A stretch of DNA of 64,000 nt from Azorinus chamasolen (lineage: Eukaryota; Mollusca; Bivalvia; Cardiida; Solecurtidae), in NCBI GenBank assembly GCA_963576725.1, contig OY755241.1, positions 72,483,799 through 72,547,798 on the forward strand, given 5' to 3'. The notes under the pieces were generated by a model that did not search any database, had not been told where the DNA came from, and was given only the letters and a program-made list of their open reading frames with translations. Below, piece after piece: positions 1 through 50,444 of this stretch. Every line of letters begins with the position of its first letter. Positions within the stretch are counted from its first letter, which is position 1. The translations under genes and the position numbers were made by a program.

Positions 1-414
1 TCAGTTCTTCATAGTTTTCTTGTAACTTTTTATAGTCCTTGGTCTTTTTTCTAAAGCTTTAGTTACTCTCATTCTTGCTCCTGCCTTTCGCCGAGGAAAA
101 GGCATATTCACTACAAGGTGACGAGGCATTGTATCAGATGCGCTCTCGTAACCACTCGATTCAGGTGGAGCTTGCTCTTCTGCTAGGTCATTTCTTTCTA
201 GATTAATAAGTTTTTTCTTAAGTCTATGTCTGTGTAGGTACTCTTTGTTCTTTAATCGCCTATATGACTTTTCTTTCCTATTTAATTTATCTGCTGGAAC
301 ATAATTCTTCTGTTTTCTTTGTCTAGCCTTCAGTAGATATAACTCATAGGCTTTTTTGTCTTGTTTTAGACGTTCTCTATATTGCCGTTGAATTTCCGCA
401 CGAGATTTGGCCAT
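1..414 (-). CDS. KSRAEI-domain basic protein, N-terminal part (paralog of the 7692-10156 gene)
   Basis: The start codon is at 412-414 and the frame closes with TGA at 1-3, on the window edge. The 137-residue product opens MAKSRAEIQRQYRERLK, is strongly basic over its first 70 residues, and then has an SGYES motif and an NMPFPRRKAGAR motif. The same blocks occur in the same order in the protein at 7692-10156 (KSRAEINRDYRKRLK, SGYES, AMPFANRAAGPRKR), so the two genes are homologous. In that gene the N-terminal block is followed by about 600 further residues; here the rest would lie outside the window, in another frame or after an intron. The basic region looks like a DNA-binding arm, but this is inference. 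The upstream 1.25 kb carries its own site array (435-1668). Function unknown; most likely mobile-element derived. Confidence 0.6.
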   Translation of the reverse strand: MAKSRAEIQRQYRERLKQDKKAYELYLLKARQRKQKNYVPADKLNRKEKSYRRLKNKEYLHRHRLKKKLINLERNDLAEEQAPPESSGYESASDTMPRHLVVNMPFPRRKAGARMRVTKALEKRPRTIKSYKKTMKN

Positions 415-434
415 GGTTATGGTCTGAAAAATTG

Positions 435-1668
435 TGAAAGGTTCGTTACTTTGTTGGCTTAAGTTTTATGATCATCTATCAACTCTTACTATAATGATAA
501 TTACATTTTGCATGAACGTACAATCATAATTTAACAACATTGTTGCTTGCACAATAGATATTGTGACAATTCCTTGTAATGTTTCGTTTTCAGATTTTAG
601 GAAACAAATAAACTTATAATAGTATCGTAGTAAAATACGTAGGTCTACATAAATGCAAGTGTATTTAACATTCAATAACACATGAACAGCATTTTAACAA
701 AATATTTAATTCCAAAACTTACTCATTTCTTTAAAAAAAATCTCATTTTCTAACCTGAAAGGTTCGTTACTTTGCGTAACAAACCTTTCAATGCGTTAAC
801 TATACTATAATTAGTAAAAATTATTACTCAAATAGCTGAATCAGTAAAGCCAAAACACGTTTGGTTCATAAACTATTAAGAGTGATTAGGAGAATATAAA
901 ATTATATATTTACCAATTTTTTTCATCCCGTTGCATGTTGGTGTTTAGATCAAAATGCTCAAGTTCCAGTTTCCAAGTAAATCAATCCGTTCTTAAATTA
1001 TGTCGTCATATCATGATATGACGTCATGTAAATCAATGCAGCCTAAATTACACGTTAACCCCCGAAATATGGCCGAATGCGGTACTTTATAAATACTGTG
1101 GTAACAAACCTTGCATAACGAACCTTTCAATGAGCAGTATTTTATTCTATATTTGTGGAATAAATCATGTGATTCACAAAAAATGGCCTTTTATTATACA
1201 CTTACTCTATTTTGAAACATGCGCATACTTATTCTGCTGTTAAATATATCAATTACGCGTTGTTATGATGTAACAAACCTTTTCATTTAAAGTCATATTT
1301 CAAATTACTGAGTTGTCAACACTCTATACGCGCCAATCTATCTTTTTCAACACGATTTTCTTACTTTCGGTAAATTTTATGATACGGTACGAGTATTTTA
1401 ACCACGTTACGACATAAATTGGCATTGAATGAAAGTTACAAAGAATTTCCTTTGAAGCAGTAACGAACATTTCATTCATTTCGAAGACAATGTATATATG
1501 CATGCATGTATGCACAATTTAACACCAGGTTCGTATAAACTTGATTAGATGCGAAAAGAGTTCTGTTTCTGCAAATCTACTTATTTTATGCTTGGTAGAT
1601 AATAACAACTAATCAATAAGAATGTATATTAGAGAATAAATTGAAAGACGACAGTCACGAACCTTTCA
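435..1668. promoter_or_regulatory. Array of eight 15-bp sites (TGAAAGGTTCGTTAC) upstream of the first KSRAEI gene
   Basis: Forward copies start at 435 and 756. Reverse copies (GTAACGAACCTTTCA, 0-2 mismatches or a 1-base insertion) start at 776, 1101, 1115, 1270, 1460 and 1654. The copies at 756 and 776 form an inverted pair with a 5-base spacer; those at 1101 and 1115 form a direct pair. All lie on the 5' side of the gene that starts at 414. The layout matches the array at 10197-11492 next to the paralogous gene. Likely binding sites for the encoded protein (inference). Confidence 0.75.
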
Positions 1669-1844
1669 AATCTACGATGTTTGTGATGGGATTTAAAATA
1701 GTGTTTGCATTGTATCTGTATACTACTAATTCATTTAAGTTCAGCTATCTGTTGCTCATAAGAAGTCCACACCAAATCAATTATTTCCTCGGCTGTTAAT
1801 GACACCAGATGACAGCGACACTGCCTGTTAGAAATTGCACCGGC

Positions 1845-2406
1845 TTATTGAATATGACCGTAATACGTAAGTGTCAGAATTTTCAATTCAATCCGATGCT
1901 GAACCGGAAGCCAGTGAAGTTCCTTCAAAACCGGCGTGATATGATTATATCGATATATATAAGTCCTTGTTATGATGCGGGCTGCTGTGTTTTGTACTCT
2001 TTGAAGCTTCCGCAGTGTTTTGTTTGGAATTCCATGCAGCAATGAGTTGCAGAAGTCTATCTTTGATGTAACCAGAGAGTTCACCAAAGTCTTGGTAGCA
2101 GCAGGCGAGAGATACTTTCTTATATGACCTATTCGTCGGAGCTGTGCATAACTAGACCTACACACGGAATTGATGTGTGATGTCATATCCATTTGTGAAT
2201 CGAGCCATGCGCCGAGATTCTTTATACACAGAGATTTTAGAGGGTCCTTCTTGCACATGAATCTCTTCAGGTACTTCTGTGTTTTTAGTATGAAACAGTA
2301 TGACCTCGGTTTTGTCAGTATTGAGCTTCAGCATGTTCTGGTGCATCCAAGACACTAGCTCCTTGAGACAGTTCTCAACTCGTGATAAAGCTTCCTGTTG
2401 ACACAA
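1845..2406 (-). pseudogene. Non-LTR retrotransposon reverse transcriptase, 3' fragment (CR1/L2-like)
   Basis: Two overlapping minus frames together read as the thumb and C-terminal part of a LINE reverse transcriptase. The first part (about 2406-2260) contains SWMHQNMLKLNTDKTEVILF. After a frameshift near 2255 the second part (2258-1845) continues with LGAWLDSQMDMTSHINSVCR, KTLVNSLVTSKIDFCNSLL, VQNTAARIITR and LKELHWLPVQHRIELKIL. These runs are typical of CR1/L2-clade elements. The catalytic YADD region and all 5' sequence are missing, so this is a dead, 5'-truncated copy. It lies just outside the first KSRAEI site array and may mark where that element ends. Confidence 0.85.
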
Positions 2407-2779
2407 AATGTAAATGTTTCTGTCAAATTAAACTTACCTTATTTGCACCAGATGGAATATTTATTATCCAAACTTCATTATATAACTTTAAAACACAGCA
2501 CATATTAAATGTAATACATTTCAGAAGGCTGAACAAAGAATAAGCATAAAATCGCAAAAATATGTTACACTCCTGACAATCACATGATGTCCATGTACTT
2601 GATACACAAACATCATCTTCACTCATAAGTGTTACTTGTGATCACTCTCAGACTCAGACTTCCAGGAAAATCATATAAATGTGTAAAGTTTTTGGCATCA
2701 CAATTTTTCATTATATACCAAATGTTTCACTCCTGACGGATTCAGGCCAGTTTTTTTCTATGAAGCAAAACAACAGTTA
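2407..2779. other. No gene seen; flank of the TIR element
   Basis: AT-rich, no supported coding. About 60 bases at 2722-2772 (tttcactcctgac ... tatgaagcaaaa) recur in diverged form at 5840-5900, on the other side of the inserted 2.7 kb element, so the element entered a locally duplicated sequence. Confidence 0.5.
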
Positions 2780-3579
2780 GGGGAGACCGGGGCTAGTTGG
2801 TACATTTTTTACATTTTGTTTTATTTTTCATCTGATTTGAAAAATATGGAAAATCAGTTGTACAAGTCTGAATGTATTGAATGCGCTTTATTAAAACAAG
2901 GGGTAGTTTAGGACACAGAATTGAAGTTAACGAATATATAAAAAGATTTTGATAGCCTTTTTAGTGTATCAACAAACCCCATACTCGGGGCTAATTGGTA
3001 CATAGTGTGGGGCTAATTGATACACGTCACTGACGTGAGTAGCTAATGTCATCGGCATCTGAACCGCAATTCTAGCAAAAATAAACACACCATTTAGAAA
3101 CATTTGTACATTCGACATGGTCTCATTCACTGTAATCAACACATTTAATCCACTTCTCGTGGGGCCTCGAGTTAGATTATGGTTCAAGGCCGACTGAGCA
3201 ATACCATTCGTTATCATCAGATCATTCAGATGATTCTACACGTTTTGTCTTCGGTTTTACGTTTTATTATTGTTTTAGGCGCTTTAAGTCCCTTCTTATT
3301 ATTGGTGTTTGCTATTAGAATTGCATCTGTTGATAGATATACATGTATCGCACCTGTTCATTTTCCTTTTATAAATACGGACCATCCTGAACCAAAATCA
3401 AATTCAATTCTGATTTAAACCGTTCTCTTTTTAATTAAAACATTATGCACGTCTACCGCCATCGATTCTGATAATCTTTTTTTGTTGCCCTGATATTTTT
3501 TATAAAACAATAATATCTTTTACTTTTTTGTTATATTTTGAGGTTTTTAACACAAAACTAGAACCCCCCCCCCCCCCTT

Positions 3580-4840
3580 GTGTATGACATTTGCTTTCTG
3601 CATGCTCTTTCTATAGATGAAATGTCTTTCCAATAGCATCAGTAGAACAGGAGTTATTGATCGGACAAAAACGTAACAAAGGGCAATAACTCCAAAGGTA
3701 TTGAGGCGAGAGTTATGGCTATTGTACATGACACTTTCTCTCATCATGCTCTTTCCATGTATGACGTTTCAATCCAATAGCATGAACTATATAGGAGTTA
3801 TCGTCTGGACAAGAAAGTGTGAAACAAAAGTATAAGGGGAAATAACTCAAACATTTTTGAATGGAAAAGTAGTAAAGTCAAGCAGGCAAAGCCACATGCA
3901 AGACGCAACCACCACCAAAACACCGATAGACAGCATGACACACACACCCACAACCACACACCCAATCGCAAAAAACTAGACCTTGTATATAGCACTTTCA
4001 TTCATCATGCTCTTTCCATGTATGAAGTTTCAATCCAATGGTATGAGCTTTATAGGAGTAATCGCCTGGACAAAAGAGTGTAAAAAATGTAAAAGGGGCA
4101 ATAACTCTAATATTAGTGAAGTCAGAGTTATGGACCTTGTGCATGGCACTGCCTCTCATCATGCTATTTTCATGTATGAAGTTTCAATCCAATGGCATGA
4201 ACCATATAGGAGTTTTCGTCCGAAAAAGTGTGAAAAAATGTACAAGGGACAATAACTCCAATATTATTGAAGCCAGGGGTGTGGACCTTGTGCATGCAAT
4301 GAAGTTTCAATCATTTCAATCCATTGAGCCATTCAGGAGTTTTCGTTCGGACAAAAAAAGGTGAAAATGTACAAGGGGCATTAACTCCAATGTTAATGAA
4401 GTCAGAGTTATGGGCATTGAGCATGAAACTTCCTCTTATCATGTATGTACACTGTATATAGTTCCAGACTATAAACCTCACCTTTACCTTTATCATTCTC
4501 TTCCTATGTATGAAGTTTCAATACGATGGCATGAGCCATATAGGAGTTATCGTCCGGACAAAAAAGTAAGAAATAATGTACATTGGGCAATTAACTCTAA
4601 TATTAGTGAAGCCAGAGTTATGGACCTTGGGCATGACTATTCCTCTCATTATGTCTTTCCATGTGTAAAGTTTCAACCAACTGGCATCAGGCATATAGAA
4701 TTTATCGTCCGGACAAGAAAGGGTGACGGACAGACGGAAAGACAGACGGACTGACGGACAGACAGACAACTCTCACAAAAACCAGACAACTCTCACAAAA
4801 ACAATATGTCTCCCCATATAAATATTGGGGGAGACCTAGG
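3580..4840. repeat. Degenerate tandem array, about 150-bp monomer, ending in a gacggacagac run
   Basis: Monomers share 'gttatggaccttgtgcatgg', a catgctctttccatgtatga block, tttcaatccaatggcatga, atataggagttatcgtccgg and aaggggcaataactcc. Restarts of the ggaccttg block fall near 3978, 4133, 4281 and 4621. The array closes with tandem gacggacagac, then ctctcacaaaaac and a tctcccc/ggggaga inverted pair at 4809-4835. This layout is usual for bivalve tandem-core elements. Open frames here come from the repeat, not from genes. Confidence 0.7.
3867..3975 (+). repeat. Dispersed 110-bp repeat, copy 1 of 3
   Basis: The run from gtagtaaagtcaagcaggca through the caccaccaaaac and gatagacagcatgaca blocks recurs at 20531-20641 in the same orientation and at about 19283-19372 reversed. 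Confidence 0.8.
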
Positions 4841-5504
4841 CTATTAAATAACGTCTAGATCTACCTTAACAAGAAATCACAAAAAAATCACATTGTTTCT
4901 TACACAACTATTAGAGGCATGCATTTACTTGGTAGATTATATAAGAGCACATTAATATACACAATAGTTTACAAACTAGCAACTGTATCAGCATTACTTC
5001 TAATTATACATTTTAGAAATAAAAAGAGTGGAATTGCGCATAAAAACATATAGATCTATTGTATTTTGACCTATACTAATATTAAAGTCTAGACTGGGGC
5101 TAGTTGATACACTGTATCAAATAGCCCCATGGCATGTGTATCAATTAGCCCCAAGCCAGCTTCCTATAAAAAATGGACTCAAGAATGTTCCAAATTATGC
5201 CCATGCCATCGCTACAAACACATTATGTTTCAAGCTGAACCTTACATATAAAGTAAATTCAAAATAGTAAACGCTTAGTTACTGATTAACACAATAAACC
5301 CAAAATTTACTTACGTTGTTATAAATCATACACATGGACCTACGAGAAGCAGTTATTGTCGTAGAGGGTTGGCATCAACAGCAAAACGGCCGCAATATTT
5401 TACTGTTTTTAAATATGAAGTGATTGGCGTCATTTTGGGAGGTTTTACATTATTATGTGTGCTGTGCCATCTAGCCCCATGTATCAACTAGCCCCAGTCT
5501 CCCC

Positions 5505-7438
5505 TACATTAATAACATATGAAAAATATTTTACCTAGTTTATTACAACACATTTCTCTTAACTCTGAACAACAAAGAATGTTAATCATTTAAATGTTAT
5601 TGAAGTTGTAGCTCAATACACATTTTTTAAATATCTTTTTTAGTGATTTTTTTCTAAATACCCATTTATGAAATCACTTATTTTTTGCGTCTTGACATGA
5701 TAATAATGCTTAAAATTATATACTATCTTCAAGGCAACATGTTAAACTTTTTGTTAAAAACAATTGTAACTTTCAAAGTTATCAATATTATTTAAAGGAA
5801 TCTCATGAATTTGGTGTTTGTTGAATACTGTCACGCTTTTTTGTTTCACTCCTGACATTTTAGACCTGTTTTGTTATCATAAGTTTTTTTTCTGTGAAGC
5901 AAATTCCTTCAAACTTCACACACTTTTTAATGACATTGAATGACATGTTTTGGGGTAAAAGATGTTAGCATAGTTTGTTTAGAATATATTTTATTGTGGA
6001 AAAACCCAAACTAGCCAATTGTTTGAAAATAGCCCATATGAGGTAATGGGTTAACCTTTTACTGCATAAATGTTCATGTAAGAACTAATGACCTCATCAA
6101 TATTATTTAGATTAACTGTTTGAATAGCACATTGTTAGGGAGTGCTTGGTTAAGGCAGAAACTATAGAATCATATCTACATGCTATCATAAGCAAACACA
6201 GCATCCTGATCACATGGCTCCTACAGGAGGAGTCTGATCGGGGTCTACTCTTCAAAGGCGTAGAAGGCGCATTTGTGGAGTAAAGGGTCAATACTTCTTT
6301 TACAAACAGAGCAGATCCAGATCTTACAACTAAAAACAGAGCTATAAAAATTAAATAAAAACATCATGAACATTAACTACTGGTACATGACAATCTGTAA
6401 TGGCACATTAACACATAAATGTTTGGTCTTGGCTGAATATGGTAGATTCAATACTATATTTTTTCATACATGTATATCTGTTTAAAAACTCATAGATGTG
6501 CCTTTTCACTCATTCTCACGAGATTTGGGATTTTCAAGATAAAAAAAACCAAGAAAGGTGATGCAAACTGATTAGTTTTACTTTCTTCCTTCTAAACGAT
6601 CAAATTCTTGTTGACATACCTTGAAAATATTTTGAACATCAATTGAAAGACAAAAATGCTATAGGCATTCAAACTAAAGGTGTCGATGCGACGTTTTAAG
6701 TTGTTGTAATGTACGGTACGTTTGACAATGACTTATTTAATATAACATCTATCACTGTATATGCATCTATGATTAATAATAAGTACTTGTATTTGACTAG
6801 TAACGTTGTTGTTAGTAAATGATTGTTCCACTATATGAGGAGATGGCAAACAGATGGCCAAACGTATATCATTGCTAATGTGACGAAAACAGATTGTGCT
6901 AGGTTGCGCCGCCATTTTGTCAACACCTCCATATCAGTGTTTAACACAAAGTGAATTTACACTTGATTACACTAGAAGCGTTACATTTTCATTATAAATA
7001 CATTTATCAGATGAAAATCGAATGACCATTATTGAATTATTGCATAATTTGCATGTAGCAGTTCTTTGAAAAGTCCCTATCAAATGTATCGGACATTTCA
7101 TCAAGTTTGATATTTTTCAAACTGCATCTATCCAATGTTTCTGCATACCAGTGTTGCTTGTTGCCTGTGTTGAAAAACAATATGCAAATAAAACATATTG
7201 AAAAGACATACACATGTCTACAAACTACGTTTTTGTTATTCTTTTGTCTGAAAAAGGTTTACGAAATCCAAGTTACTAGTCAAGAGCATTTCTAAAGGTG
7301 AGCGAACTACAGTCACCACAATTGATAATCAGAAACTCTGCACATTCATTAGGTCCCATATACGACACAGATAACAAGAATCAACACTTATAGAACAGCA
7401 ACAAATCGAACATGATAACAAAGTATTAAATTGCTTCA
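5505..7438. other. No gene seen; AT-rich DNA with one decayed miniature element
   Basis: No coding evidence. A decayed A-type miniature element lies at 6051-6291: a TTAACC end, hairpin remnants gcaaacacagca and tctgatcggggtctactc near 6191-6260, and gagtaaagggtcaa at the far end. Confidence 0.5.
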
Positions 7439-7452
7439 GTCTCGGACGTTAC
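7439..7452 (-). promoter_or_regulatory. Outlying KSRAEI-type site (GTCTCGGACGTTAC)
   Basis: One mismatch to the reverse form of the second array's site (GTCTCGAACGTTAC). It lies on the 3' side of the gene, about 240 bases beyond the coding remnant, so sites flank both sides of this locus. Confidence 0.55.
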
Positions 7453-7691
7453 ACAAATTTCGGAATTCTCGCGATCTCGCCAATATGGTAACATATCATC
7501 ACACAAAACGACATTCTCAGTGGCTGCTGATTGCAAAATGAAGAAACACATAATGTACAAAGATCTTATAAGCTTTATGCATTATATTGTTTTGAATTAG
7601 GAATCTCTGTTGTCTCTGTTCACCCAAAGAGAGTCTTAGTTAGCATTTCCAATGTCACGGCAAGGGTCCACGCGTGATGAAAGTATACTTG

Positions 7692-10156
7692 TTACTTAAT
7701 TACGTACCTTTCGAAACAGGACTGAATTTTCACACTGTCCTCTTCACACACACGGAACATCCGTTTGGACTTGCCTGTCTGTATAGGGGATTGAATATTG
7801 CATAGCATCAACTCTGTGCCAACCCACAACTCATCTGCTCTACGGGGCCACTGAAACAAACTCTTCTTTTTCTCCATGAAACTCACTCATCAACACCGAT
7901 GACTTTACCGACAAACCAGTCCGTGCCATATACTGCTGCAACAAAGGAACCGATGTCCGTGCATATACTTACGTCCCGGTCCCCGTTCCCGTTTTCACTC
8001 ACCTCTGTATTATTCTGCTCTGGTGGGATTCGACTCCTATCAACGTTTTCCGTCTTTCTAGTGACTTCCAGTCTCCACGTGTGACATACACCGGTACCAA
8101 GAATACATTCTTCACAGTAACAACTTGTGTTTCTGACAAATAGCTTTGAAACTCCTGCGCCAAATACTGCATGTACTTTCATCGTACCCTTTACAGGCTT
8201 GAGCTGAGGAGCGGTCGCTGCCATGTCACTTACCTTTTGTTGGACTTCTTCGTCAGAAATATACTTGAAGCTGACATTTCTGAGACTGGATTGCGTGGCC
8301 CATGCAAAAAACTCTTGGGCATCTTGAATGGTACACTTACCTGTCTTGACTGCCATGTCGGCCATTCTTTTTACTGTCCCCCCTAACCCGTCGCAAGGAC
8401 CCTTGCCGTGACCACTCTCGAAATAATTCCAGTAAGCCTTGCAACCAAACCTGTCTTTATGATTTGCAACAGTGTCAAATATAATGCGGTTTCTATATTG
8501 AGACGTTGGACTGTCTGTCCAATAATGACAGACGTCCAAGTCTGGTACTAGTGTTTGTACTTCTGGTATAATGGCGTCTAAGACGCAAAGAACTGTGTTT
8601 GCGTTATGTGACAATGTGTCCGACACGACAACGAAGCTGCGATGGTTCAATGGTCCATCCTCACCATGCTTGTGATACACAACGACAGGATGAAGTGTCA
8701 CACTTGTCTGATTCCAGTACGCGGATTGTATCTCATTTGCAGATTTGCAGGCATAGTTCTCCGCAAAATCCATGTGTACTATTGCATGTTTTGCCGGCAA
8801 ATTTTGTTTTAGACCCCGCATTTGGTCAAACTGTTCTTTAACGCGACTCACGTGCGATGCAAAAGCAGTTTTCTGTTCTTTAACGTGATTAAGGAACTCG
8901 GCTTTTAACAGGCTACTTTGCACAACTCTCATCACATATTTACGTTTTCCCTTTTCTTCAACTTCAACTCTTTTCCATTGTGACAACCGAATTTCATTTG
9001 CAAGTCTGTTTTCTATATCTGACAAGTCTACGTTTTCTTGAACAAATTTTTCTGGGTTTGAAGATACCAAAATGCCCATACTACGAATTGATTTCACAGT
9101 GAGAGCCATGTTTTGGTGCTGTGTACAGAGACAGCTGTTTCGCGTTATGAAGGCGGATAATTGTATGTACTTTGGTCTTATCCTACAAAATGTCGAGAAA
9201 GACACTTTTAATTCCGGGTTTTCCGCGAGAAACTTCTTGTGAAGATGTTCAAGGTAGTCCGTTAATACACGTGTCTGTTTTAGTTCTTTTCCGCACTTTG
9301 TCGCATCATTTTTGCCGGGCTGCAACCTGCTGTTGTCGTCCCTTTCTAGGAAGACTAGGATCTTGTCTTCAAGTTTACGCTTGAAACTGGGTCTCTCTTC
9401 TTTGTCACTGGTTGGAGCCATATAATATTTTGTGAACACATTTTTGTTCAAGCCAGCTCTGTAGCACAGCGCTACATTGCATCGGTATTTTCTTAAAATG
9501 TCTCCTGCCATGAGTATATGAACACTTTTCACTGTTGAGTTGTTGGTGCATTCAGCTTTTTCGCGAATTTGATCAGCCATTGCATTTCCAAATACAAGTT
9601 CTTTTCGTATAATGTTATTTTGCTCATTTGAAAGGTTTGCACTTTTCATCAGGAACTCGGCCTTACTTTTAGGTGTACTTGGTGACTTTTGGAGACGCTT
9701 GAGTATGCGCTGTTTTCGTCTTTGCTCTGTTTTGAGTTATTTGAAAAGAGCATTGTTCGTATTTCGTAGCTTAGATATCTCCTTTTTCGCATCACGCAGT
9801 TCATCAGATAGTCGCTTTCTCGGCCCAGCTGCACGGTTGGCAAATGGCATGGCAACGATGAACGGTGCTGGAGAGCTAGAGCAAAAACTCTCATAACCAC
9901 TGGTTTCATTGTCTCCTTCCTGGAATGAATTGTCTCCGTTCTGTTCTCTGTTTTGTTCTCTTTTACGGCTCCTGGACCTTTGGACCCTTTCTCTAGTAAG
10001 TTTTCTTCTTTCCTCCCTCTCCTTTCTAGACAAAAACGCTGATGGTGTGTAATTTCTTCGCCTCCTTTCTCGCTCTTTTTGTAGATAACCTTCGTTATCC
10101 TTTTCTTTTAACCGTTTTCTGTAGTCCCGGTTGATTTCTGCACGTGACTTAACCAT
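7692..10156 (-). pseudogene. KSRAEI-family protein with possible DDE-type transposase core; one in-frame stop, one frameshift
   Basis: From ATG at 10154-10156 the frame runs 139 codons, meets TAA at 9737-9739, and continues in the same frame through LKTEQRRKQRILKRLQ to a 588-codon frame ending at 7883: one reading frame of 758 codons with one internal stop. Order: basic KSRAEI arm; SGYES and AMPF motifs; a short leucine-spaced helix; C/H cluster CLCTQHQ (residues 173-178 of the 588-residue part); HMDFAENY (Asp294); HYWTDSPTSQYRN (Asp379); ESGHGKGPCDGLGG (Glu411); CYCEEC (510-515). The D-D-E spacing and flanking motifs suggest an RNase H-fold transposase; this is inference. Homologous-looking sequence (SFMEKKKSLFQWPRRADELW) follows in another frame at 7886-7692, implying a frameshift near 7886. 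A good splice donor (AAG/GTACGT) lies at about 7709-7701. Function in the host unknown. Confidence 0.7.
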
Positions 10157-10196
10157 GGTGACCTGTATTAAAAAAGGAGCTATGTTTTAGGAAACT

Positions 10197-11492
10197 GTAA
10201 CGTTCGAGATTATCATATGTAACGTTCGAGACCAAAGTATACAGCATCCTGGCATGGACTGTTTTAAAAATTATATATATGGAAGAAATGAAACTTTCTT
10301 CAGGTTAAAAACACAAGTTTGGTTTTATTTTTAAAAAAAAATGGCACTTAGATATTTGACCCAAGATAACTTGGGTTTTTTTTCAAATCGTTTTACGTTA
10401 CAAGCCAATGTTCAATTATAAGGTCTTGATGGATTCAAATTCATAAACTGAATACAAATACATGAAGTATGATGAATATAATAGTTGCTTTATAGGATAA
10501 CGTTAGAATTTTAAGCCAGATATGGGCATTAAAAGAACCATAGAGAATATGTAACGTTCGAGACGGAAAAGTCGCGGACGTTACATGCATTTTATTCATA
10601 CACAATGTGGATCAAATTGGTATACTTTAATACAAAAACATTCGAAATACATCGGGCTAACAACCTATATATCATGCAACATCAATGTTGAATCAGTTTT
10701 CAATATCAAGGGAGATAAAAAAGTTCAGTTACCAAGGCTGGTTTTTTTCTTCTCCAAATGTTATCACAACAGCGCTGCCACGATGGAGGTGACGTCACTT
10801 CATGTGCCCAATGACGTCACTGACTTCTTCGACTTCTGGGATCGAAAAATCACGCACATAGGAGTACAAACGGATTATTTACTTATTGGTCTCTAAATGG
10901 CAGTCTCGTACGCTACAGTCTCGAACATTACAAAAGAAACCATTTGATCATGTGTTTGATTGTTATTTGTATTGAGGCAGTAGAAGCATGTTCTCTGCAA
11001 CATCTAAGAGGGTTTCAATCAATCGAAATCATTAAACAGCCAAATCCTTTCTCGATTTTTCTTTCATTTGGGTCTCGAACGTTACCACGTTTACTTGTAT
11101 TTTCGCCGCTGTTTGCAGATAAACCATTTTTCAGGGTAACAACTCGTTTCAAACTAGTTTGGCACCAATGAAATTATACATACTAGTTACTACCATGTAT
11201 GAACGAAAGCCTCGTATGAAGAAAGTGATGTTGCAGCTCTAGTTTGGCGAAGATAATGAAGGGCGAAATTTACAGTCTCGAACGTTTCGCTCATTTACGA
11301 AAATCGGCGACAAGCATTTACAAGCATGTGCAAGATATTTCTTTCATTTTTTGGTAGTACGTTCAATTCTAAACAATAGGGAAAACAGTTTTCTTCAATT
11401 CAGGTCTGCTGTTTCACTCGATTTGCCTCAAATTTTGATATTGTAGGTATCCAATGTTGGGCATTAGATATGGCGACAGTACCGAACGTTAC
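10197..11492. promoter_or_regulatory. Array of nine 14-bp sites (GTAACGTTCGAGAC) upstream of the second KSRAEI gene
   Basis: Forward copies start at 10197, 10219 and 10551. Reverse copies (GTCTCGAACGTTAC, 0-2 mismatches) start at 10571, 10903, 10918, 11072, 11275 and 11479. The copies at 10551 and 10571 are an inverted pair with a 6-base spacer; 10903 and 10918 are a direct pair. The gene starts at 10156. Aligned with the site of the other locus, the two share GnAAnGTTCGnnAC (10 of 14 positions). Confidence 0.78.
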
Positions 11493-12639
11493 ATTTACGA
11501 CATATCAGCCGCAAAAAGAACAGGTTTATATGTCAGCTGATTATTTTTTCTACATAACCAAGCAAGATAATGTTGTGTTAATGGATTGAAGCCATTAATT
11601 GGCTTTTAAAATGTATCAGTTAACAACCTTTGACTTGGCGACATTAAAATCCCAAAGTTGGTGAGAATGAGTGTTTTATGAAAATAGTGAGCGAGTTGCG
11701 TTTTACGGCACTGCGACACAAAATAGGTCATATAGCGCCGATGAATGATGAGGGATGACATCAGGAAGATGATTTCGGCTAATCCCATGCGCTGCAAAGC
11801 GTTGGACAAGATCAGACAACTGTTTTAGCTGTATTGCCAGGATCTTCCCTGTAGTAGAACTAAAATTCTCGTTTCATTTCCATAAGATCTAGCTAGATAT
11901 AGATCTATATTAAAATATAGATCTACAATCTCATTGCGTTCATCTATGTGCTGTAAAATGTATTTTTGCTACTGTTCGTACATTACCGTAGCAGATATAG
12001 TAGAAGTATTTTAGAATAGAACTAGATCATATCAATCTAAACTATCTGTAAAACTAGAATTTATATTAATCTAAATTTTAAATTGGTTTAAAACGTTTGG
12101 AATCAACTTTGTGCTGAGCCATAGATCTACAATTAATCAAAACATAGTTTTCTTGTATTTTTGGAGAAGCTAACAAATCATACTTTTAGATCATTGGGCA
12201 CATTATTTGGTGTTTCTGTTACGTAATATTCGTAACTGTGTTGCTAAGAAAGCAGTGGTGTGATCACAGTCAAGACTATTGTCCCCTGCTGAGAAACTTT
12301 GAAACTTAAATGACACGCATGACTATGTAGACCACAAACAGACACACTTTTAGCTAAGGTTTTTTAGCAGAACATAGAGAAAGACTTCAGTTAAATACTT
12401 TCATTTTGTTTTATGGGTCCAGTATTGTTTGTAGGAGAGGTGTCATTTATGCTGTGGTCATCATGAAGAACAGAGATGATAGGATCCAATTCAGGTTGGC
12501 TATGGTCATTTAGGGGAGTACCTATTAAGTTGGATTCCCCACTGGTACACGAACCTCCCTGCCATAGTCCCCACTGGTTCACAAACCTCCCTGCCATACA
12601 TTATTCATGTGTTCCTCTGTAGTTGGGCCTTCTGCACCT
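11493..12639. other. No gene seen
   Basis: AT-rich DNA with no supported coding. A small AT palindrome built on tatagatctatatt lies near 11898-11926. Short direct repeats of 'ccccactggt(a/t)cac(a/g)aacctccctgcca' occur at 12538-12598. Confidence 0.5.
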
Positions 12640-16879: not shown

Positions 16880-17132
16880 TTAATAACCCTTTCCTTCATT
16901 GAAACGTGTTTTCACGCACTTGCAAGCAGAGAAGACCCAGATGAGACGGTATCTATAGGAGCCGTCTGATCAGGGTCTGCTCGTGTTTGCTAATAGAATT
17001 TAACGATCTGTTTCTTAACATTCTAAAATGGTTACAATGTTTCACCTTTCTTTTTTCAATAAAACTAATTTGTCCGTGAATATTAATTCGGTATTAAAAA
17101 TTTAAAATAAAATTGAACAAGGAAAGGGTTAA
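16880..17132 (+). mobile_element. A-family TTAA miniature element with hairpin
   Basis: TTAA at both ends, imperfect inverted ends (accctttcc / ggaaaggg). The hairpin at 16924-16990 carries cagagaagacccagatgaga on one side and gccgtctgatcagggtctgc on the other. No coding; piggyBac-like termini. Confidence 0.75.
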
Positions 17133-26272: not shown

Positions 26273-29200
26273 CTGGGGAAAACAAACAACAAATGTTAAA
26301 CCATATATATCTAAGTGGACGTGTCTAAATTAGCACATCTACACGACTCTACATAGTAAACATTCAATATCGGACCGATATCCGCCGAATTTTTTTCTTC
26401 TAAACGGGCCGTCATCGATCCGACGTCGGATGTGCACCCACTTTTCAAATTGGTCCGACATCGGCTAGCATATCGGACCAACAACGGATTTTCAACGGCT
26501 CTGCATAATAAGCCGACATCGGCATGTTTTATAGATTACTCCCATATATATGTATATGTACCCCTAAAGCTAATTCAGAAACGTTTTACTAAAAAGGAAG
26601 GAAGGCATCCACAATAATTCTCGGGCTAGTAAACTAAGCTGTAGTGACTCAAACTCTAGTGTTTGTCCCCCATTTCTGAGAAAATACATGATCAATGGCA
26701 TAAATATTTAGGTTACAAAACAGCACAACACTGTTTTAAATTTCTGATGCCATCAGTTTTATTATACGCCCGAAGGGTCGTATTATGTTATGGTCTCCAT
26801 CGTCTGGCCGTCTGGCTGGGTGTCCGTCTGTCTGTCTGTCCGTCCGTCCGTCCGTTAGCAAATTCGTGTCCTGGCTATAACTTACTCATTTTTTCTCCGA
26901 TTTTCAAAATTCTTTCACACAAATGTTCAGTATCACTTGAAGGTGTGTCGCGTACAAAACCCAATTGTGAACTTTCAAGGTCAAGGTCACAAATAGGGCG
27001 TTAGCAATTTTCGTGTCCTTGCTAAAACTTACTCATCTTTTCACCAATTTTCAAAATTCTTTCACACGTATGTTCAGTATCACTTGAAGGTGTGTCGCGT
27101 ACAAAACCCAATGGTGAACTTTCAAGGTCAAGGTCACAAATAGGGCGTTAGCAATTCTGTCCGTCCGTCCGTTAGCAAATTCGTGTCCTGGCTATAACTT
27201 ACTCATTTTTTCTCCGATTTTCAAAATTCTTTCACACAAATGTTCAGTATCACTTGAAGGTGTGTCGCGTACAAAACCCAATTGTGAACTTTCAAGGTCA
27301 AGGTCACAAATAGGGCGTTAGCAATTTTCGTGTCCTTGGTAAAACTTACTCATCTTTTCACCAATTTTCAAAATTCTTTCACACATATGTTCAGTATCAC
27401 TTGAAGGTGTGTCGCGTACAAAACCCAATGGTGAACTTTCAAGGTCAAGGTCACAAATAGGGCGTTAGCAATTCTGTCCGTCCGTTAGCAAATTCGTGTC
27501 CTGGCTATAACTTACTCATTTTTTCTCCGATTTTCAAAATTCTTTCACACATATGTTCAGTATCACTTGAAGGTGTGTCGCGTACAAAACCCAATTGTGA
27601 ACTTTCAAGGTCAAGGTCACAAATAGGGCTTCAGTATCACTTGAAGGTGTGTTGCATACAAAACCCAATTGTGAACTTTCAAGGTCAAGGTCACAAATAG
27701 AGCGTTAGCAAATTTTGTGTCCTGGCTGTAGCTAACTAGACCTACATCATTACCTTTAAGGTCAGTCATATTTGAAGGTGAAAGGTTAAACGCACTTATG
27801 TCACGTTCGGTTTAAACTTTCTCGACTTTTTTTCCAAAGTTCAAAAAAGTCTGAAAGTCTGAAAATGATTGCTATGTACACTGTTCTTACCATGCTCATA
27901 TCTTGGATATTTTTCATTCTGGAGTTATTGCCCTTTGATAGTTTCGGGTAGCAATTTCTTGTGCAACTAACTGCTCCTTTATTTTTCAACATAATTTTAT
28001 AGAACAGCATTCGGGCGTATATTGCCCCGTCTTGCGGTGCTCTTGTTGTTTATCATTTCATGTAACGATATTTTATTAATCTTTTCTCCAATGAATGTTG
28101 ATGCAAAACACTACCAATTGTGAATGTTTGAAATTTCATTTTGGTAAATATTGTACTGAAAAACCAGGGGTGATGCCTTAAAACCTTTTAGTCTGAGAAT
28201 AAACTTATGCTCAAACTCGAGATTGGTCAGATTTGACGTAGTCAAAGTCTGACCAATCTCGAGCTCCAGCACGATTTCAAGCTACATATCCACCAAATTT
28301 TGTATTTTAAAGCTTTGCTCAAACTATAACTGAGTAAATGTTTGAGAATTGTGCAACCAGTGCACTCCACAGCAGTGATTGCACAGCGAAATACTTGTAC
28401 ACAGTGAAGATATATGTAATTATACAACAGGACATGGGTAAAGAAGAAGAAATGTATTTTAAAATTCGACAAGAGAAGGGTTAACAATGTTCAGCTAGCC
28501 ACTGACCACAGTCCAGATTTTGGATATTTCTCATACCTTCTCTCCTACAGTTACTTGTAGATAATTATATAGTTGTATACTGTCCCTTGTTTCATAGTTA
28601 AGCCTTCCTCAATGCAGGTATTATATATTATATATTTTTGTCTCAGGTAAAAGGTAGATCCGGACCATGTAGGAGCTTAGCATTACATTTGACCTGCATT
28701 TAGCTGATTCTTGATATGTGTGGTGATACATTTTAGAACAATTCAGTATCGTAAAATTTGGAAGGACTGAATATTTGGTTCGACTTATCCCGAAGTCCGA
28801 GTTCGAGATATCGAAATTCAGCTGTATTTTCAACGGTGGATGGGGATAACACGAGCGTTTAACATAATGTACGAGTATGAAACACTATTGCAGTCAATAT
28901 GTATGTTACAATTAAAACGTTTCAGTCCTTCTCATTCTGAAAAAAATGTCTGCCTCATCTCTGATCTACTAGACTTGTTTTCGACTTCATTCAAGCCATC
29001 AAACTACTTACTGAGTGTCAAGACGCTTGAAGTCACTAGGCGTCTAAACTGGAGCCATGCTGTTTGAAAAAGTCAGTAAAAGCCCATGGAGTGATGGACC
29101 ATTGGCGTAACTGACGTATGGAGTAACGGGTTAATATGACAATAGATTAGCCGTGTAGGACTCGTAAACTAATACTTTGATCTGCATCTGGGTCCATGCT

Positions 29201-35200: not shown

Positions 35201-38200
35201 CATGCATACACGTTCATTACGGAAATGGTTAAGCCGTATCACATTGTTAACCAATTACTCTATAAATACGCATTACTATGCCTTTGCAAACAGAGCAGAC
35301 CCAGATCAGACGGCTCCTCTAAGAACGGTCTGATCAGGGTCTGTTCTGTTTCCTTAAGAAATAATAAAGATATGAATATACTGTTTCTGTATAGGCCAAA
35401 AATGTCTGTGTTCATGCGTCCTAATTAATCTAATAAATATTCATACATGCACGTTCACTAGGGAAATGGGTAAGCCTTATCACTCTGATAACCCTTTACT
35501 CCATAGATACGCCTATGTACGCCTTTGCAAACAGAGAAGACCCAGATCAGACGGCTCCTAGAGGAGCCGTCTGATCAGGGTCTGCTCTTTTTGCTTATGG
35601 AATAATGTATAATTATATTGTTTCTGCCAGGGCCAAACATGCCTTTGTTTATGTGTCCTTATAAAAAACAATAATTTTATTAATATTCATAATGTCATTT
35701 TCTTGCATAAAGAGTCACGAAGTGAATGGTTAATATATAAAATAAAAAATGATAAAAAAGTTCAAACCTGATCTGACGCGGAGCTTACTGGGCGTCAGTG
35801 GGTCAGTGTTTGCATTAACTCTTTCACCGCCAATGTCACGACAGATAGTGCAGTCCCAGACCAGATGACGACTTTTCAAGACGGCATCTGATTAGTGACT
35901 TCACATTTTATCTCATACTCTATTTGATGTGGTTTAAATGCGATTTATTCCTTTGAAATTTACATTTATTTATCTAATTTCCTTATTTTACCGCATGATT
36001 TAACAAAATTGGTTTGCAGACGACAATTAGAAATTTGGCGCCGAAAGGGTATAAATGTGTGTCACCTTTAGTCTTCTTCAGATGAGGTATGGCTAACTGG
36101 GCCAGGAAAATGCAGGCTTTCACATTGGTATCAAAGATGTCGCTGTATTCTTCCTGTGTTGTCTGAGCAACATATTTGGCATGAAGAATCCCTGCATTAT
36201 TGACCTGTAAATGAATATTCATATAAAGTATGATGTTTATTTAACCCTTTCACCTGTTGAATATTCATGTAAGCAATAATAACATCATGAATATTTATTA
36301 GCTTAAATATTTGTATGATGGCATATGTACACAATATATTTGTCTATGGCAGCACTATCAGATATATTATACCATCAGCAAACATAGCAGACCCTGATCA
36401 GACGGCTCCTATAGATCCAAGCTCTTTGGTACCACGAGTCACGCCGCGCCGTGTTGGATGAGTCAACAACATATCAAGGTAAGACTTATCAAGCAACAAA
36501 GTAATGTCAAATTTGGTCCGAATAGTTTCACCGGTCAGTTACCTTTCTCCAAAATATGGGTGTGTGAAATGTATAGATAAGTAAACAAGGGGCTTGATAG
36601 GGATGCCTTTTTGACACCTTTGAGTAGACACTGGTCAGAATACAGTAAAACCCCTCTTAACCGGACGTTAAAATTAGCATAAATGTGGGTCTTGGAAACA
36701 GGTAGCTGCTTAATGCAGGGTGAAAGTCGCAGAAAGCTCCTCTAGGAGCTTTCTGCATGACTTTCACCGTGCATTAAGCAGCCACCTGCTTAAAAGTAGC
36801 TAAATTCTTGTCTACTAGAATATCGGTTTTTACTGTATTGAATTTCACAAATCTTGTCATGAACAGCGGCCGAGATGCCCTGTTTGCAAATGCGCATCAA
36901 GTCGCACATGGTGGAATAAAGGTCTATAGTATATTGTCTTTGATAATTCAAAACACATAATGCCACATACAACTGACCCTTTATCTGATGAACATTCACG
37001 TAGGAATTAATGACGTCATGGATATTAGATTAATGTTTATAATGGCAGAAACTATAGAATAATTAGCATTAATTCTATTACTATTGGGCGCATCGCTTTA
37101 CCACTCATGAGAGGGGAATGGTCTTGATACGACATTGCAAAGTTATCTCGGCATAATGTAAGAATATTAATTAGCTATATTTTATTCTGGCATTTGAACA
37201 CAATAATTCTGAACTTGACAGGGGCTGTAGAACCAGATCTATATTATTTCGAAAGACGCCATCTGATCGGGGTCTGGTTAGTTTGCAAATGCATAACATG
37301 GTGTCTCCATTTAGGAAACTGGTTGACTAAGAATAAATGTGAGGCTGGGCGCCCCATAACCGGTCTAAACCCCTCGTAACCATTGTCACTGACCGTACCA
37401 AGGCGGTATTCCCATCTTCCCCCTATTGTTTGTTTGTTATGTTTCCGTGCGTCTCTTTGTTTCTTTTGATATGCATGTACATTTCACTGTTTTTGTCGTG
37501 GTGCTGTTCGGGCGGCTGTGTTTTTATGGGGTGTTTCCTGCATTATTCATGCATGTGTATGCAATTTTAGGTTAACTATCAAAACATATTACCAGTACAT
37601 CTATCTGTCCAAACTTTTCAAGAGTTTTTGCAATCACGTCTGCCCTGTGGGTTTCGTCCCTTATATCACCACACACTGTGATAACCTGAAAATAGCCAAA
37701 TAAAATAAGAAACATAATTGTGGTATTTTTCGAAAAACAGGCGTGTATGGCAGTAAAAAGGTATGGTATAGTCCTATCCAAATGTATGTATGGCAGCGAA
37801 AAGATACTATGGTATTTCCTCAGAAATCATGCGCATGGCATATGTGTATCGTGTGAATGAGCGCGCTTCGTGTGATTTGAATCGGTTTGTGTAGAGTTCC
37901 TTTTATGGTCTACATCCTTTGGCACTGCATGACCTTTTTATACGCCCGAAGGTAACTTCTGTCGTATAATGGTATGGCGCTCGTCCGTCCGTCTGTCCGT
38001 GCGTTAGCCATTTTTTTGTCCGCTCAAAAGGTTAACTAATATGTATGCTGTCTTTATACTTAGTATGAAGGTTGGTCATGACTAGTAGATGACCTCTATT
38101 AATTTTGAGTTCAGTCGGTCAAAGGTCAAGGTCACAGTGACATTCAACTAAAACTATCATCCGCTCAATAACTTGATAAGTATTAGGTGCGCTGTCATCA

Positions 38201-41200
38201 TACTTAGTAGGAAGATTTGTCATGGTTAGTAGATAACCCTATTGACTTTGACGTCAGCCGGTCAAAGGTCAAGGTTACAATGACCTTCAACTAAAAAAAC
38301 TCTTGTCCGCTCAATAACTTGGTAAGTATTAGGTGAGATGTCTTCATACTTACATGTACCAGGAAGGTAGTCATGGCTAGTAGATGACCCCTATTGATTT
38401 TGAGGTCAGTAGGTCAAAGGTCAATGTCACTGACCTTCAATTAAAAAATGTTGTCCGCTCGATAACTTGATAAGTATTGGGTGTGCTGTCCTCATACTTA
38501 ATAGGAAGGTTGGTCATGGCTAATAGATGACCTCTATTGATTTTGAGGTCAGTCGGTCATAAGTCCAGGTCATTGTGACCTTCAACAAAACATTTTGTCC
38601 GCTCATTCACTTCATAAGTATTAGGTGTGCTATCTTCATACTTAGTAGGAAGGTTGGCCATGGCCAGTACCTGACGCCTATTGAATTTGAGGTCGGTCAA
38701 AGGTCAAGGTCGAATTGACCTTCAACTCAAATTAATACGTTGCATGTTACGACGGCACATATTTCGGGCATATAAGGCTCCGGCACATGGTGCTCTTGTT
38801 ATTTTCGCACTGCCTTTAAATGGTGTTGATGTGGAAAAGGCTAGAACCAGTCTATGAAGGTCGTGCGGAAGTTGGGATTGTTGTATGTTTTAATAATGTC
38901 TGTCGTTCGATCTTACGTAAAACTAGATTGTTGAGTGAGGATTTGTGTTCCTTGCTATGCCTTCTGATGAGAAGATGATTATAATGTAACACATGCAGTG
39001 GGGTTTTTGTTCATCCCGTTACTGAAGTACCAACGCATGTTTCTTTAATACTGTAACTCTATACTGTAAAAGCCCTCTAAACAGGACGTTAATTTTAGTA
39101 TTAATATCGGTCTTGGAAACAGGGGCAGCTTAATGCAGGGTGAAAGTCGTGCAGAAAAAGCTCCTCTAGGAGCTTTTTGCATGACTTTCACCCTGTATTA
39201 AGCAACAATCTGTCTAAAAGTATCGAAATTCTTCACTACTAGACGTCCGGTTTACAGGGGGCGGGGTTTACTGTATTGAAATGAATAATATAGCAGCACA
39301 TGTACAAGAGCATCTTTATTCATCACAACACATTTGATGAGTTTGTGTAACATTTATCTTTAGACAGTGTTAAAGCAAATCTTATTAACCCTTCTCTTGC
39401 TAAATTTTAAAGTGCATTTCTCCTTCTTTACCCATGCCCTGTTGTACAATTACATATATCTTCACTGTGTACAAGTATATCGCTGTGCAATCACTGCTCT
39501 TAAGTGCATTGGTTGCACAATATTTACAGGTAGGTATATTGACGTGAATAGCAAGCGAATGGTTAAAAAACTCTCACCTCGGTTGTAGAGGTGCCTGCTT
39601 CACGACATCTCACGGCCGCGCGTTCCAAATTGTCAGCTTTTCTGCCTGCTATGCAAATTTTGGAACCCAGTGATGCAAACTTTAAGGCAATACCTTCGCC
39701 AATACCAGAGTTTCCTCCTGCAAGTAAACAAAATAGTTCATATACGTTACACTTTAATATCTATTTTAAATAATGTATACAGTTGAACGTTAATATCTCA
39801 AACCTCAACTGACCATACAAATTACTACGAAATAACGGAAGTTCGACTCATCCGATTTCTAATTTGAACAATTTATCAAGTTCACAGCTTAATGCAGGTC
39901 TAAAATAAGTCTTAAAGCTCCTACAGGAACTTTTAGCATTACTTTCAGCCCGTATAAGCTGTCATGTGTTTCGAGTTTCTCGATATGCGTAGTGATACAT
40001 TTTAGAACAATTCTGTATCGTAAATTTTGGATTGACCAATTTTTTACTTCGAGTTATCCAGAAGTTCAAGTCATCTAAGTTCGTAAACATTAAGAACAAA
40101 TAAAAATAAATTTTTTAGCAGAAGACATAAATAAATTGGCAGCGAAAGATTTAAAAACTGGTAACCAGGCAACATTCCCAATCTTAATCATACGTAAGTG
40201 AGTGAGTTGGGTTTTCGGCACTGCAACACTAACCCGTTTATAGGTAATATGGCACCGAGAATAGAGAAAAGTTGCGTGACCCACATCTCTTACATGTACA
40301 TCAAGATTAGATATAGGACAAGGATACAGAAATGTTAACACCTGTTGGAAAATCAAAGATGAAGAAACTCCAGTTTACGGAAGTCACCCCTTACGATCAT
40401 GCAAAATTAGAACAGTGATGTCCATTCTTGTGTCATCATGAAACTTGTTCATCCTTTCATGGAAGTTTGATTTACATCAGCATTGTGGTATAAACTTGAA
40501 CTTTAACCTGCTAAGCTAATAAGTAATTACCTATGCGAACAGCATGGATCCAGCTGCAACGCCGAGTAACTCACAATAGCATGAGTATGCAGCTTGTGCA
40601 CGTAATTTGTGTGTTATATGATAAAACAAATATCGACTTCATTTAGAGTGACAGTGCATACTGAACTGCTATCGACCGAGGCGTAGTGATAGTGAGTATT
40701 GTTAACCTGGGGAAATATTGTCGACCGACGCGTTACATGTATGGCTGCATTTTGTAAACTTGGGGAAAATTGTCAACAGATGCGTTATGATATTGCATAT
40801 TGTTAACTTGAGGACATACTGTTGACCGAAGCACAATAGCGGATTAGCAGTACTTATTGTTAACCCCTTCCCTCATTTAAACGTATTTTTGCGCATTTGC
40901 AAACAGTAGACCCAGATCAGACGGCTCCTATATGGGTCTGCTCTGTTTGCTAATGGAATTTGATAATTCTGTTTCTTTACTTTGTAAATTCCACCTTCAA
41001 TATTTCAATGTAACTATTTTGTCTATGAATATTCAGTAGGTATTGAATTTTGGAATAAACATAGAACAGGAAAAGGGTTAATCTGAAGAAATACTGTCGA
41101 CCGAGGCGTAATGACATTGCATATTGTCAGCCTGAGGAAAGTCTGTCGGCTGATGTTTACGCCTAGGTCGACAGTATTTTATCAGGTCGTAATAAGCATT

Positions 41201-44200
41201 GCCAGCCTCAAGGAAGGCAAGATTTATATATTATTACATGTTTTAGAAAAACACACGATGAAAAGTCAGCTTTCTTTTTCCAAGACAAGGGTCGCCATTT
41301 CCACTAGTTCACATTTGTGTATTCTAAATGGTGATATCGAGCTACTTTCCGTTTTAACGATATCCCGGCAGACGGCAACTATCACAAAATTAGCATGCTG
41401 TATTACGGGTCATTAATGAGACTACATTTCGACTAAAGCCGATAATACGAGTTGCTTCCTCGGTTACAGCTAAACATTTATCAGAACGCTTTGACTTGCT
41501 AACTATAATGTCAGGATAATGTGACCATGCGTGATGGAAATATTCACCGGGTGACAGTAAATCAGTCAGCTCTTACTGGTTTCGTCGATTTAATTTTACA
41601 ACAAAAAATAAGTAGTTTCATATCATATTTGTAAAATACATTTTCCTCCGATACTGTTGGAAGATTCAGACAAGGGAGACAGCCATAGTCTGTTGAGCAA
41701 ATTATATTTAAAGATATTTTTACCAACTGCATTTTTTACAATTCAAGCTATAATCGATTTTGTCTACAAAATGCGACCACGGTCCATGCTTATAAAGCTT
41801 TAAGTTGAGTCTGAGATCGTTCTCAAGCTTTGATTGGTCAGATCTGACCAATCAAACGTTTGAGAACTCAAATCTGACCAATCAAACGCTTGAGAACGAA
41901 AATCAGACTCAACTAAAAGCTTTATAAGCATGGACCCAGATGAAACCTCGAGCTATATTACCAAACTATGTCACAGTGCCGTTAACCCTTTCCCTGTTCT
42001 ATGTTTATTTCAATTTTCAATAGCTAATGAATAGTTGTTAACAAAATAGTTATAAAGATATATGCAAGGTGGAACATTGTAGACATTTTAGAAAGCAAAG
42101 AAACAGATCTTTAAAATTATGTTAGCAAACAGAGTAGACCCTGATCAGACGGCTCTTCTTATCTCTGGAGCCATCTGATCTGGGTCACCTCTGTTTGCAA
42201 ATGCGTGAAAACACGTTTATATGAGGGAAAGGGTTAAGACAAACCCCAATCAAAGTCATCGATAATAAGTTTATAAAAATGAATAACGCACCTGTTATAA
42301 TAACAACTTTCTCAGTTTTAGACCCCATGTTCCACAGCCTGTCTCTTCTCAAAATCACAATAAATTTCCTTATGTTCGCTCCCACTGATCTAGTGACAGG
42401 ATAAGACAGTTCACTGGACAGTGGGTTGAAAAGTTTAAATCTGCTGAATAGTAAAAACCAGCCCCCCTCCTTATCACATTATTATTTCAACAAACAAGCT
42501 TATATAAAAAATTATTGCAGAAGAAAACAATTATTATGACTAACAGTGCAGATCCTGATCAAAAGGGTGCCCTTAAAGGACACCCTCTAAGGACATCCTC
42601 TGGGTGTACATTGATTTATATACTCGGACATAAAGGGTTAAATCTGATGAAAATAAGTTAATGTAAACACTCCTCATACGAAAAGTAATACAAGTACAAA
42701 CATGAGTCATGCAGGAAACACCACATACAGAACAAACAGTCACATAAACAATCGCCATACTCTCTTGAAGTTGTCCAAACCTGTGTAATATTTTAATACG
42801 AGAACGAAACAGTTGTGGTCGTCTTAAACAAGTATATTGTTCATTATCTCAACGACTGCTGGCCCTACCGTACTTCTGTAAGTGTTTTACAAACATTTCA
42901 GTTTTGGGAATCAAAACAGGTCACCCGGGGCTATGTCAACGATATCAAGAGCATTTGCTTGGGTTTTTTCTCAAACCTATTGGCGTATCACGTGGATTCA
43001 AGCTGTTTACTAACGTGAGGGAGTTAACATGGGTGGGATACAATAAAACCGATCTGAACCGGAATTCTAGTAGAGAATTTTTTTTAAGGCAGGTGACTGC
43101 TTAATACAGGGTGAAAGTCATGCAGAAAGCTCCTCTAGGAGCTTTCTGCATGACGTCCACCCTGCATTAAGCTTTCACCTGTCTCCAAGACAGATATTGA
43201 TACTAAATTTAACATCCGGTTAAATGAGGTTTTACTGTATATGGTTTTGTCACTGGAAGTTCCATAGATGTACATGCAACAGTAGAAACTGTCTTAAACG
43301 ACCATTATAAAGAAGTGTATAAACCTGGATTTCTAAAACGGGTAGTGGCTTAATGCAGAACAAAACTGATACAAAAATATAGGAGCTTTCTGTGTCACTT
43401 TTTCCCTACATTAAGAGGTCAAAAATAATACCAAAAAGCTCCTAAAGGAGCTTTATGTGCTACTGTGGCCCTGCATTAAGCAACGATCTGCTTTGTAATA
43501 TTCCTATGTTCAATAGATAAATGACTGCTTTGTCAGGTTCTACTGTACATACAAGAATCGACATGGAATAGTCCAGGAGTTCTATCACTGGGTGATCAAT
43601 TACATGTAACCCCTTTACTTCATGAATATTCATGTAGGAAAGAATGACACCATGGATACCGGTATTAACCCATTCCCTCATATAAGCGTGTTTTCACGCA
43701 TTTGTAAACAGAGTAGACCCAGATCAGACGGCTCCTAGAGGAGCCGTCTGATCAGGGTCGGCTCTGTTTGCTAATAGAATTTGATAGATTCGTTTCTTTG
43801 CTTTCTAAAATGCATACAATGTTCAACCTTCCATATTTCTTTATAGCTATTTTGTTAATATTCATTAGATACTGACACTTTGAATAAACATAGAACAGTG
43901 TAAGGGTTAATTGGCTGAATATTTATAACGATATGAAATCAGTATCTTTTGGCCAAGACAGAAAATATAGAATCAGATCTATATCATTTCATAAGCAAAC
44001 AGTGCAGACCCTGCATGAGCTGTCTGATCTGGGTCTTCTCTTTTTACAAATGCGTATTTATGGAGTAAAGGGTTAAGATAACAAGGTATCTCTATCATAA
44101 TAAGAATGATTTAACCACAGCTGTTCCAATAATCTTACCGAGATGTTCCAACTAGCATCAAAACAAAATATTTCAGTCAGGTTACTTTGTGAAAGTCCCT

Positions 44201-47567: not shown

Positions 47568-47807
47568 CCCTTTCCTTCATATTAATGCCCTGTCATGCCT
47601 TTACAAACAGAGAAGACCCAAATCAGTCGGCTCCTATTGGAGCTGTCTGATCAGGGCCTGCTCTGTTTGCCTATATAATAATGATAGATCTGACTACAGC
47701 TCCTACCAAGACCAAAACCTCCATATGTCATTATAAACATTGAGCCAATTTAATACTCATGATGCCATTATTTCGTACATGAATATTTAAACAAGGTAAA
47801 GGGTTAA
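47564..47807 (+). mobile_element. A'-type TTAA element, middle of a three-element chain
   Basis: TTAACCCTTTCCTTCATATT ... ggtaaagggTTAA. Hairpin 47604-47670, apex ggctcctattggagct. Confidence 0.88.
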
Positions 47808-50424: not shown

Positions 50425-50444
50425 TATAATATAATCAACTGCTT

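Follow-up and report, generated by a model that had tools for sequence, protein, structure and literature searches.

Arrays of a diverged 15-bp site in a bivalve genome lie within probable cut-and-paste DNA transposons

Background

What keeps the geometry of an array of DNA sites while its letters change? The question is raised by two loci in a 64,000-nucleotide stretch of the genome of the bivalve Azorinus chamasolen (contig OY755241.1, positions 72,483,799 to 72,547,798, assembly GCA_963576725.1), hereafter the window. A previous reading of the sequence alone had noted there, beside two paralogous genes (locus 1 and locus 2), two arrays of a 14-15 bp site that match in order, orientation and spacing, and had guessed that the neighbouring gene encodes a transposase, or else a self-regulator, that has a recognition array of its own. 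This guess fits our results: the gene next to the array encodes a protein with a predicted DDE/RNase H-like core, and the array lies within a unit bounded by inverted ends. In our assessment both loci very probably belong to one clade of cut-and-paste DNA transposons, whose 15-bp sites would most likely be bound by the N-terminal region of the transposase, serve in looping and self-repression, and probably be under selection for their spacing.

Arrays within two-ended elements

All 17 sites first noted are present at the distances and in the orientations claimed upstream of the two start codons (ATG at 414 and 10156, minus strand), and the 169-bp interval is exact at both loci (1101 to 1270 in locus 1, 10903 to 11072 in locus 2). 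The proposed shared core, GnAAnGTTCGnnAC, held for part of them: it is exact in 10 of the 17 and has no exact fit in the remaining seven. A matrix derived from ten locus 2 sites finds these training sites as its top ten matches in the 64 kb, and the two next best (7086 and 6705), both outside the training set, lie past the locus 2 gene but still within its element. The three sites downstream of the gene had escaped the sequence-only reading, as had the inverted ends and the edge duplication described below.

Locus 2 is a DNA transposon with both ends, which we call element A (family A). Its homology to three other copies (L010, L011 and L012) stops within about 10 bp of 6507 and 11673, and a blind search of the window for inverted ends ranked this same pair first. 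The terminal sites (6705 and 11493) were ruled out as ends, the copies agreeing for another 180-198 bp outward. In all four copies of the family 25 of 28 terminal positions match; three of the copies carry matching 4-bp flanks (in gene orientation AAAA, in the window copy, TATA and TAAT), and L012 does not. Locus 1 is the right part of element B (family B), completed by a fetched locus, L009; its ends fall at 1860 and L009:5364, with flanks that are unlike by eye. Because copy homology ends at the inverted repeats and the flanks beyond them differ, we reject the interpretation of the loci as paralogous host genes with promoter arrays. The sites do stand beside the genes, as had been noted, but the arrays are subterminal parts of two DNA transposons.

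The host assembly (1.72 Gb, 137 contigs) was searched with a site pattern, and the first 100 of 1334 places were examined. Twenty-nine of these form eight clusters, all of which (L010-L017) are elements of this kind, a result that is partly circular because the search pattern is the site itself. The sample thus comes from one genome and comprises four families (A-D) of one to four copies each, the pattern favouring A and B. Six of the 71 single places were fetched (L001, L002 and L005-L008) and none holds an array; L003 and L004 fall within the L016 cluster. The core motif is indeed scattered genome-wide, which the sequence-only reading had held to speak against it, yet as single matches (677 + 657 exact matches, against 3121 + 3051 for a reversed control that lacks CpG). 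Since the loose core alone is found all over the genome, such single matches mean little.

Terminal inverted repeats of roughly 22-28 bp, as expected of DDE-class transposons, bound the repeated unit in all four families, and the longest copies measure about 4.8-5.2 kb. The two ends agree at 24 of 28 positions in L013 (family B), at 23 in L015 and 24 in L016 (family C), and at 20 in L017 (family D); by eye, B and C share 16 of 25 positions at their 5' ends. These four copies, like L012, lack matching 4-bp flanks, and a short target-site duplication is found in family A only. L014 lacks the 5' side. With a likeness of about 94%, the two family C copies do not count as independent. Family D is separate by DNA: within the element, the chosen threshold gave no match above 100 bp to the other families. 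In L010 and L012 the gene is reduced to its 3' part, and L015 and L016 show no match to seven query proteins; all four keep their ends and arrays. Arrays without the gene, the other observation named in advance as contrary, therefore occur, but within two-ended units, like non-autonomous transposons. Family C elements hold, in the gene's place, diverged repeats that recur roughly every 280 bp (L015 5011-6055, L016 4375-5439). In further genome and viral contig collections no relatives were confirmed (17 and 11 pattern stretches).

A common plan with different letters

Reading inward from the 5' end, with > or < for site orientation and numbers for intervals in bp, family A follows the plan >204>202-203>154>15>332-338>21<332-344<22-24< gene >352-354>380-382<, and family B >194-195>190>155>14>325-330>20<321-336<23< gene >165>377-380<. 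Family C shows >206>190>155>15>319>21<358<22< followed by >534 (L016) or >722 (L015) >, and family D >196>190>155>14>332>21<359>21< followed by <375>382<. The 5' plan is nearly identical in all four families. The 5' side holds up to nine sites, the outermost about 180 bp in from the end and the innermost shortly ahead of the ATG, and the 3' side holds three; the first site lies 178-192 bp from the 5' end and 190-201 bp from the 3' end. Intervals of 154-155, 14-15 and 20-21 bp are present in all nine copies that have a 5' array. On the 3' side the first interval is not conserved between families, and the last measures 377-382 bp in nine of ten copies (window A, L009, L011-L017) and 368 bp in L010. 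In family C the last 3' site fits at 11 of 15 letters and other 10-12-letter matches lie close by, so that its assignment is carried by position and orientation. Two sites are reversed in family D relative to the common plan; missing are the two outermost 5' sites in L012, site 2 in L015 (401 bp in place of the expected 206 + 190) and, in the window B copy, one of the sites close to the ATG. With one copy per family, the 5' intervals agree better than in any of 20,000 permutations or 20,000 uniform placements, nulls that reject random placement only and cannot tell selection from common ancestry.

The site reads TGTAACGTTCGAGAC in family A, TGAAAGGTTCGTTAC in B and TGACATGTTCGTTAC in C, these differing at positions 3, 4, 6, 12 and 13 of 15, and is a degenerate B-like sequence in D. 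Kept geometry with changed letters, as first proposed, thus describes the 5' plan of A, B and C, whereas D keeps the geometry with letters resembling those of B. In each of the four families the outermost 5' site is followed by the pentamer TGTCG (window 11479, L013 3383, L015 3452, L017 2291), which was not seen after the inner sites of the window A and B copies.

Comparison of spacer DNA between families (one copy each, mononucleotide shuffles) gave z values from -1.2 to 3.3, with 24 of 30 below 2; among the six above, four come from the outermost spacer and the other two from that of 304-317 bp. Lengths agree despite this divergence (139, 140, 140 and 140 bp, for example). In the 321-344-bp interval, even copies that are about 97% alike vary in length, by 12 bp in A and 15 bp in B, whereas the 154-155 interval hardly changes between families, which is a stronger argument for selection than the nulls above. 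Because most intervals held as the spacer DNA and, among A, B and C, the site letters changed, spacing is probably under selection, and its retention across families hints that spacing itself matters.

The transposase-like protein

Relatives of the protein are mostly full-length single proteins, and one gene would encode a transposase of about 820 amino acids, with a basic helical N-terminal region, a coiled coil, a DDE RNase H-like core, a cysteine-rich stretch and a Tudor-like C-terminal domain. The core is predicted to be RNase H-like, as in Mos1 and retroviral integrases, and the C-terminal tail Tudor-like, fold likeness being judged among the families listed in the structure comparison. 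Residues D294, D379, E411 and D420 of the 588-amino-acid open reading frame (ORF) of element A are invariant in 48 aligned sequences and, together with the predicted fold, point to a DDE/D core. Sequence searches against Pfam and PDB gave nothing convincing, Foldseek gave no match to PDB at E 0.001 or better, and one of 24 family members had a sub-threshold match to bZIP_2 (16.6 bits against a cut-off of 22.3). Protein pieces of A and B are 39-46% identical; their N-termini, readable in these two families and not in C or D, are 44% identical. The family is found in molluscs and other invertebrates. Since no relative among the matches listed (120 of 441; 120 of 158) has 'transposase' in its name, and many are nameless, recognising the family may aid the annotation of many genes that lack a name.

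Relation to known transposons

Amoebozoan Sola2 elements combine 4-bp A/T-rich duplications (AWWT; ATAT, AAAT, ATTT) with short inverted ends (PMC3627910), and Sola1-3 have been reported from bivalves (PMC10294476). The 4-bp A/T duplication of three of the four family A copies resembles Sola2, by element description and not by protein (PMC3627910). However, no 4-bp flank match was seen in the B, C and D copies examined, and the excerpted Sola descriptions contain no site array (PMC3627910, PMC10294476). We do not file the elements under Sola, the likeness being one of descriptions. In Hermes, of the hAT family, short subterminal repeats are bound by the N-terminal BED domain, and about 220 bp of both ends are needed (PMC10368747); our elements likewise have repeats inside their ends, probably bound by the N-terminal region. 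In contrast to Hermes, the 15-bp sites extend over 1.3 kb at long intervals, and hAT was absent from the 25 Pfam families listed, of 31, that 24 family members matched at E 0.1. Mariner Mos1 and retroviral integrases resemble the elements in the predicted RNase H-like core, but have other ends, and no PDB sequence match is beyond chance.

The ends of CACTA/EnSpm elements begin CACTA or CACTG, and those of family A begin CACT; the full starts are CACTC in A, CGGTC in B, CATCT or CACCT in C and CAGCC in D. The duplication is 3 bp in CACTA against 4 bp in family A, and the Pfam families listed include no match to CACTA/EnSpm. The subterminal regions of CACTA/EnSpm, several hundred bases long, contain direct and inverted repeats (PMC8978399). 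In line with the earlier remark that no described element with this layout was known, our literature search (open-licence papers, judged by title and abstract opening) showed no paper on it, but subterminal site clusters as such are already known in other DNA transposons (PMC10368747, PMC8978399).

Function of the sites and rival explanations

In the mechanism that we favour, the N-terminal region of the transposase, by analogy with Hermes the most likely binder, would bind the 15-bp sites, and the bound sites would loop both ends into one transpososome of fixed architecture. The inner sites over the gene start would let the transposase damp its own expression, as is suggested by their position near the ATG. 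Copies with no gene or only its 3' part may be moved in trans as non-autonomous elements; that L010, L012, L015 and L016 keep ends and arrays with the gene lost or partial suggests a need for the array in cis. A point against transposase binding along the array comes from the Hermes paper, which deems auxiliary binding of transposase at inner repeats unlikely (PMC10368747).

We give a slim chance to the idea that the sites are operators only, bound by an autorepressor or host factor and without a role in transposition. Nine of 12 sites do lie upstream of the gene, one pair about 40-65 bp from the ATG in A; but three lie downstream, the last two at the conserved interval given above, an argument qualified by the weak last site of both C copies, and copies without the gene still carry sites. 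It seems just as improbable that a recruited host protein binds the sites and that the letters follow this factor rather than the transposase. Such a factor would suit the lack of a firm domain match in the predicted DNA-binding part and the similar letters of families B and D, but is weakened because the letter sets of A, B and C coexist in one genome, under the same host factors. We regard as less improbable, though still unlikely, that spacing was merely inherited, with too few insertions or deletions to disturb it: all families share ancestry and their outermost spacers retain slight similarity, against which stand the low z values of most spacers, the divergence of the A and B proteins, and the mobility of the 321-344 interval in nearly identical copies beside the constancy of the 154-155 interval.

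Within the favoured transpososome mechanism, an improbable extension would treat the 5' array as a ruler: a scaffold of fixed three-dimensional shape, whose spacing is what is read. Letters would swap jointly while distances stay fixed (about 180-190, 200, 190-203, 155, 15, 330, 21, 340 and 22; at the far 3' end 380 and 195), possibly on nucleosome-wrapped DNA read by the Tudor-like domain. The nucleosome part finds no support in A/T-dinucleotide periodicity of about 10 bp, which, with one representative for each of the four families, exceeded that of mononucleotide shuffles in B (1 of 200 shuffles) and not in A, C or D, or in the GC profiles of spacers, which agree poorly between families except for B with D (0.62). 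With several families in one genome, and a dozen sites in a near-single plan with differing letters, these elements would offer a natural experiment on the joint change of transposase and site, and also on what a transpososome needs in space.

Features of the window

Table 1. Elements, reading frames and sites in the window
Feature	Position	Strand	Remarks
Element A	6507..11673	-	DNA transposon with both ends, 5167 bp; from copy-to-copy homology limits and inverted ends
Target-site duplication TTTT	6503..6506	.	3' edge of element A
Target-site duplication TTTT	11674..11677	.	5' edge of element A
A 3' terminal inverted repeat	6507..6534	+	CACTCATTCTCACGAGATTTGGGATTTT; 25/28 identical to other end
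A 5' terminal inverted repeat	11646..11673	-	CACTCATTCTCACCAACTTTGGGATTTT, reading inward
A 588-amino-acid ORF	7883..9649	-	predicted RNase H-like core
A 139-amino-acid ORF	9737..10156	-	basic N-terminal 'KSRAEI' region; different frame, gene broken
A C-terminal tail	7697..7882	-	different frame, read by eye; similar tail ends an L011 ORF
A site 1	11479..11493	-	outermost, 180 bp from 5' end
A site 2	11275..11289	-	
A site 3	11072..11086	-	
A site 4	10918..10932	-	abuts site 5
A site 5	10903..10917	-	
A site 6	10571..10585	-	inverted pair with site 7
A site 7	10550..10564	+	
A site 8	10218..10232	+	22 bp from site 9
A site 9	10196..10210	+	closest to ATG
A site 10	7439..7453	-	downstream of gene
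A site 11	7086..7100	-	weaker; downstream, outside matrix training
A site 12	6705..6719	+	weaker; inverted, 198 bp from 3' end, outside matrix training
Element B, right part	1..1860	-	continues left of the window as far as L009 position 5364; overall length about 4.8 kb
B 5' terminal inverted repeat	1833..1860	-	CGGTCATATTCAATAAGCCGGTGCAATT, reading inward
B transposase-like gene start	1..414	-	137-amino-acid ORF, broken
B 5' array	435..1668		435+, 756+, 776-, 1101-, 1115-, 1270-, 1460-, 1654-

Two ORFs at 1845-2406 (minus strand) presumably resemble the C-terminal part of the reverse transcriptase of a non-LTR (long terminal repeat) retrotransposon; the ORF at 1845-2258 gave no Pfam match of note. 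Diverged head-to-tail repeats at 3576-4726 resemble L017 9275-10000 as well. A roughly 250-bp interspersed repeat occurs at 16884-17132, 41982-42237, 43664-43912, 47804-48036 and 61051-61300, with pieces in the fetched loci, and local tandem or overlapping direct duplications are seen at 26839-27727, 38016-38734 and 50443-50705.
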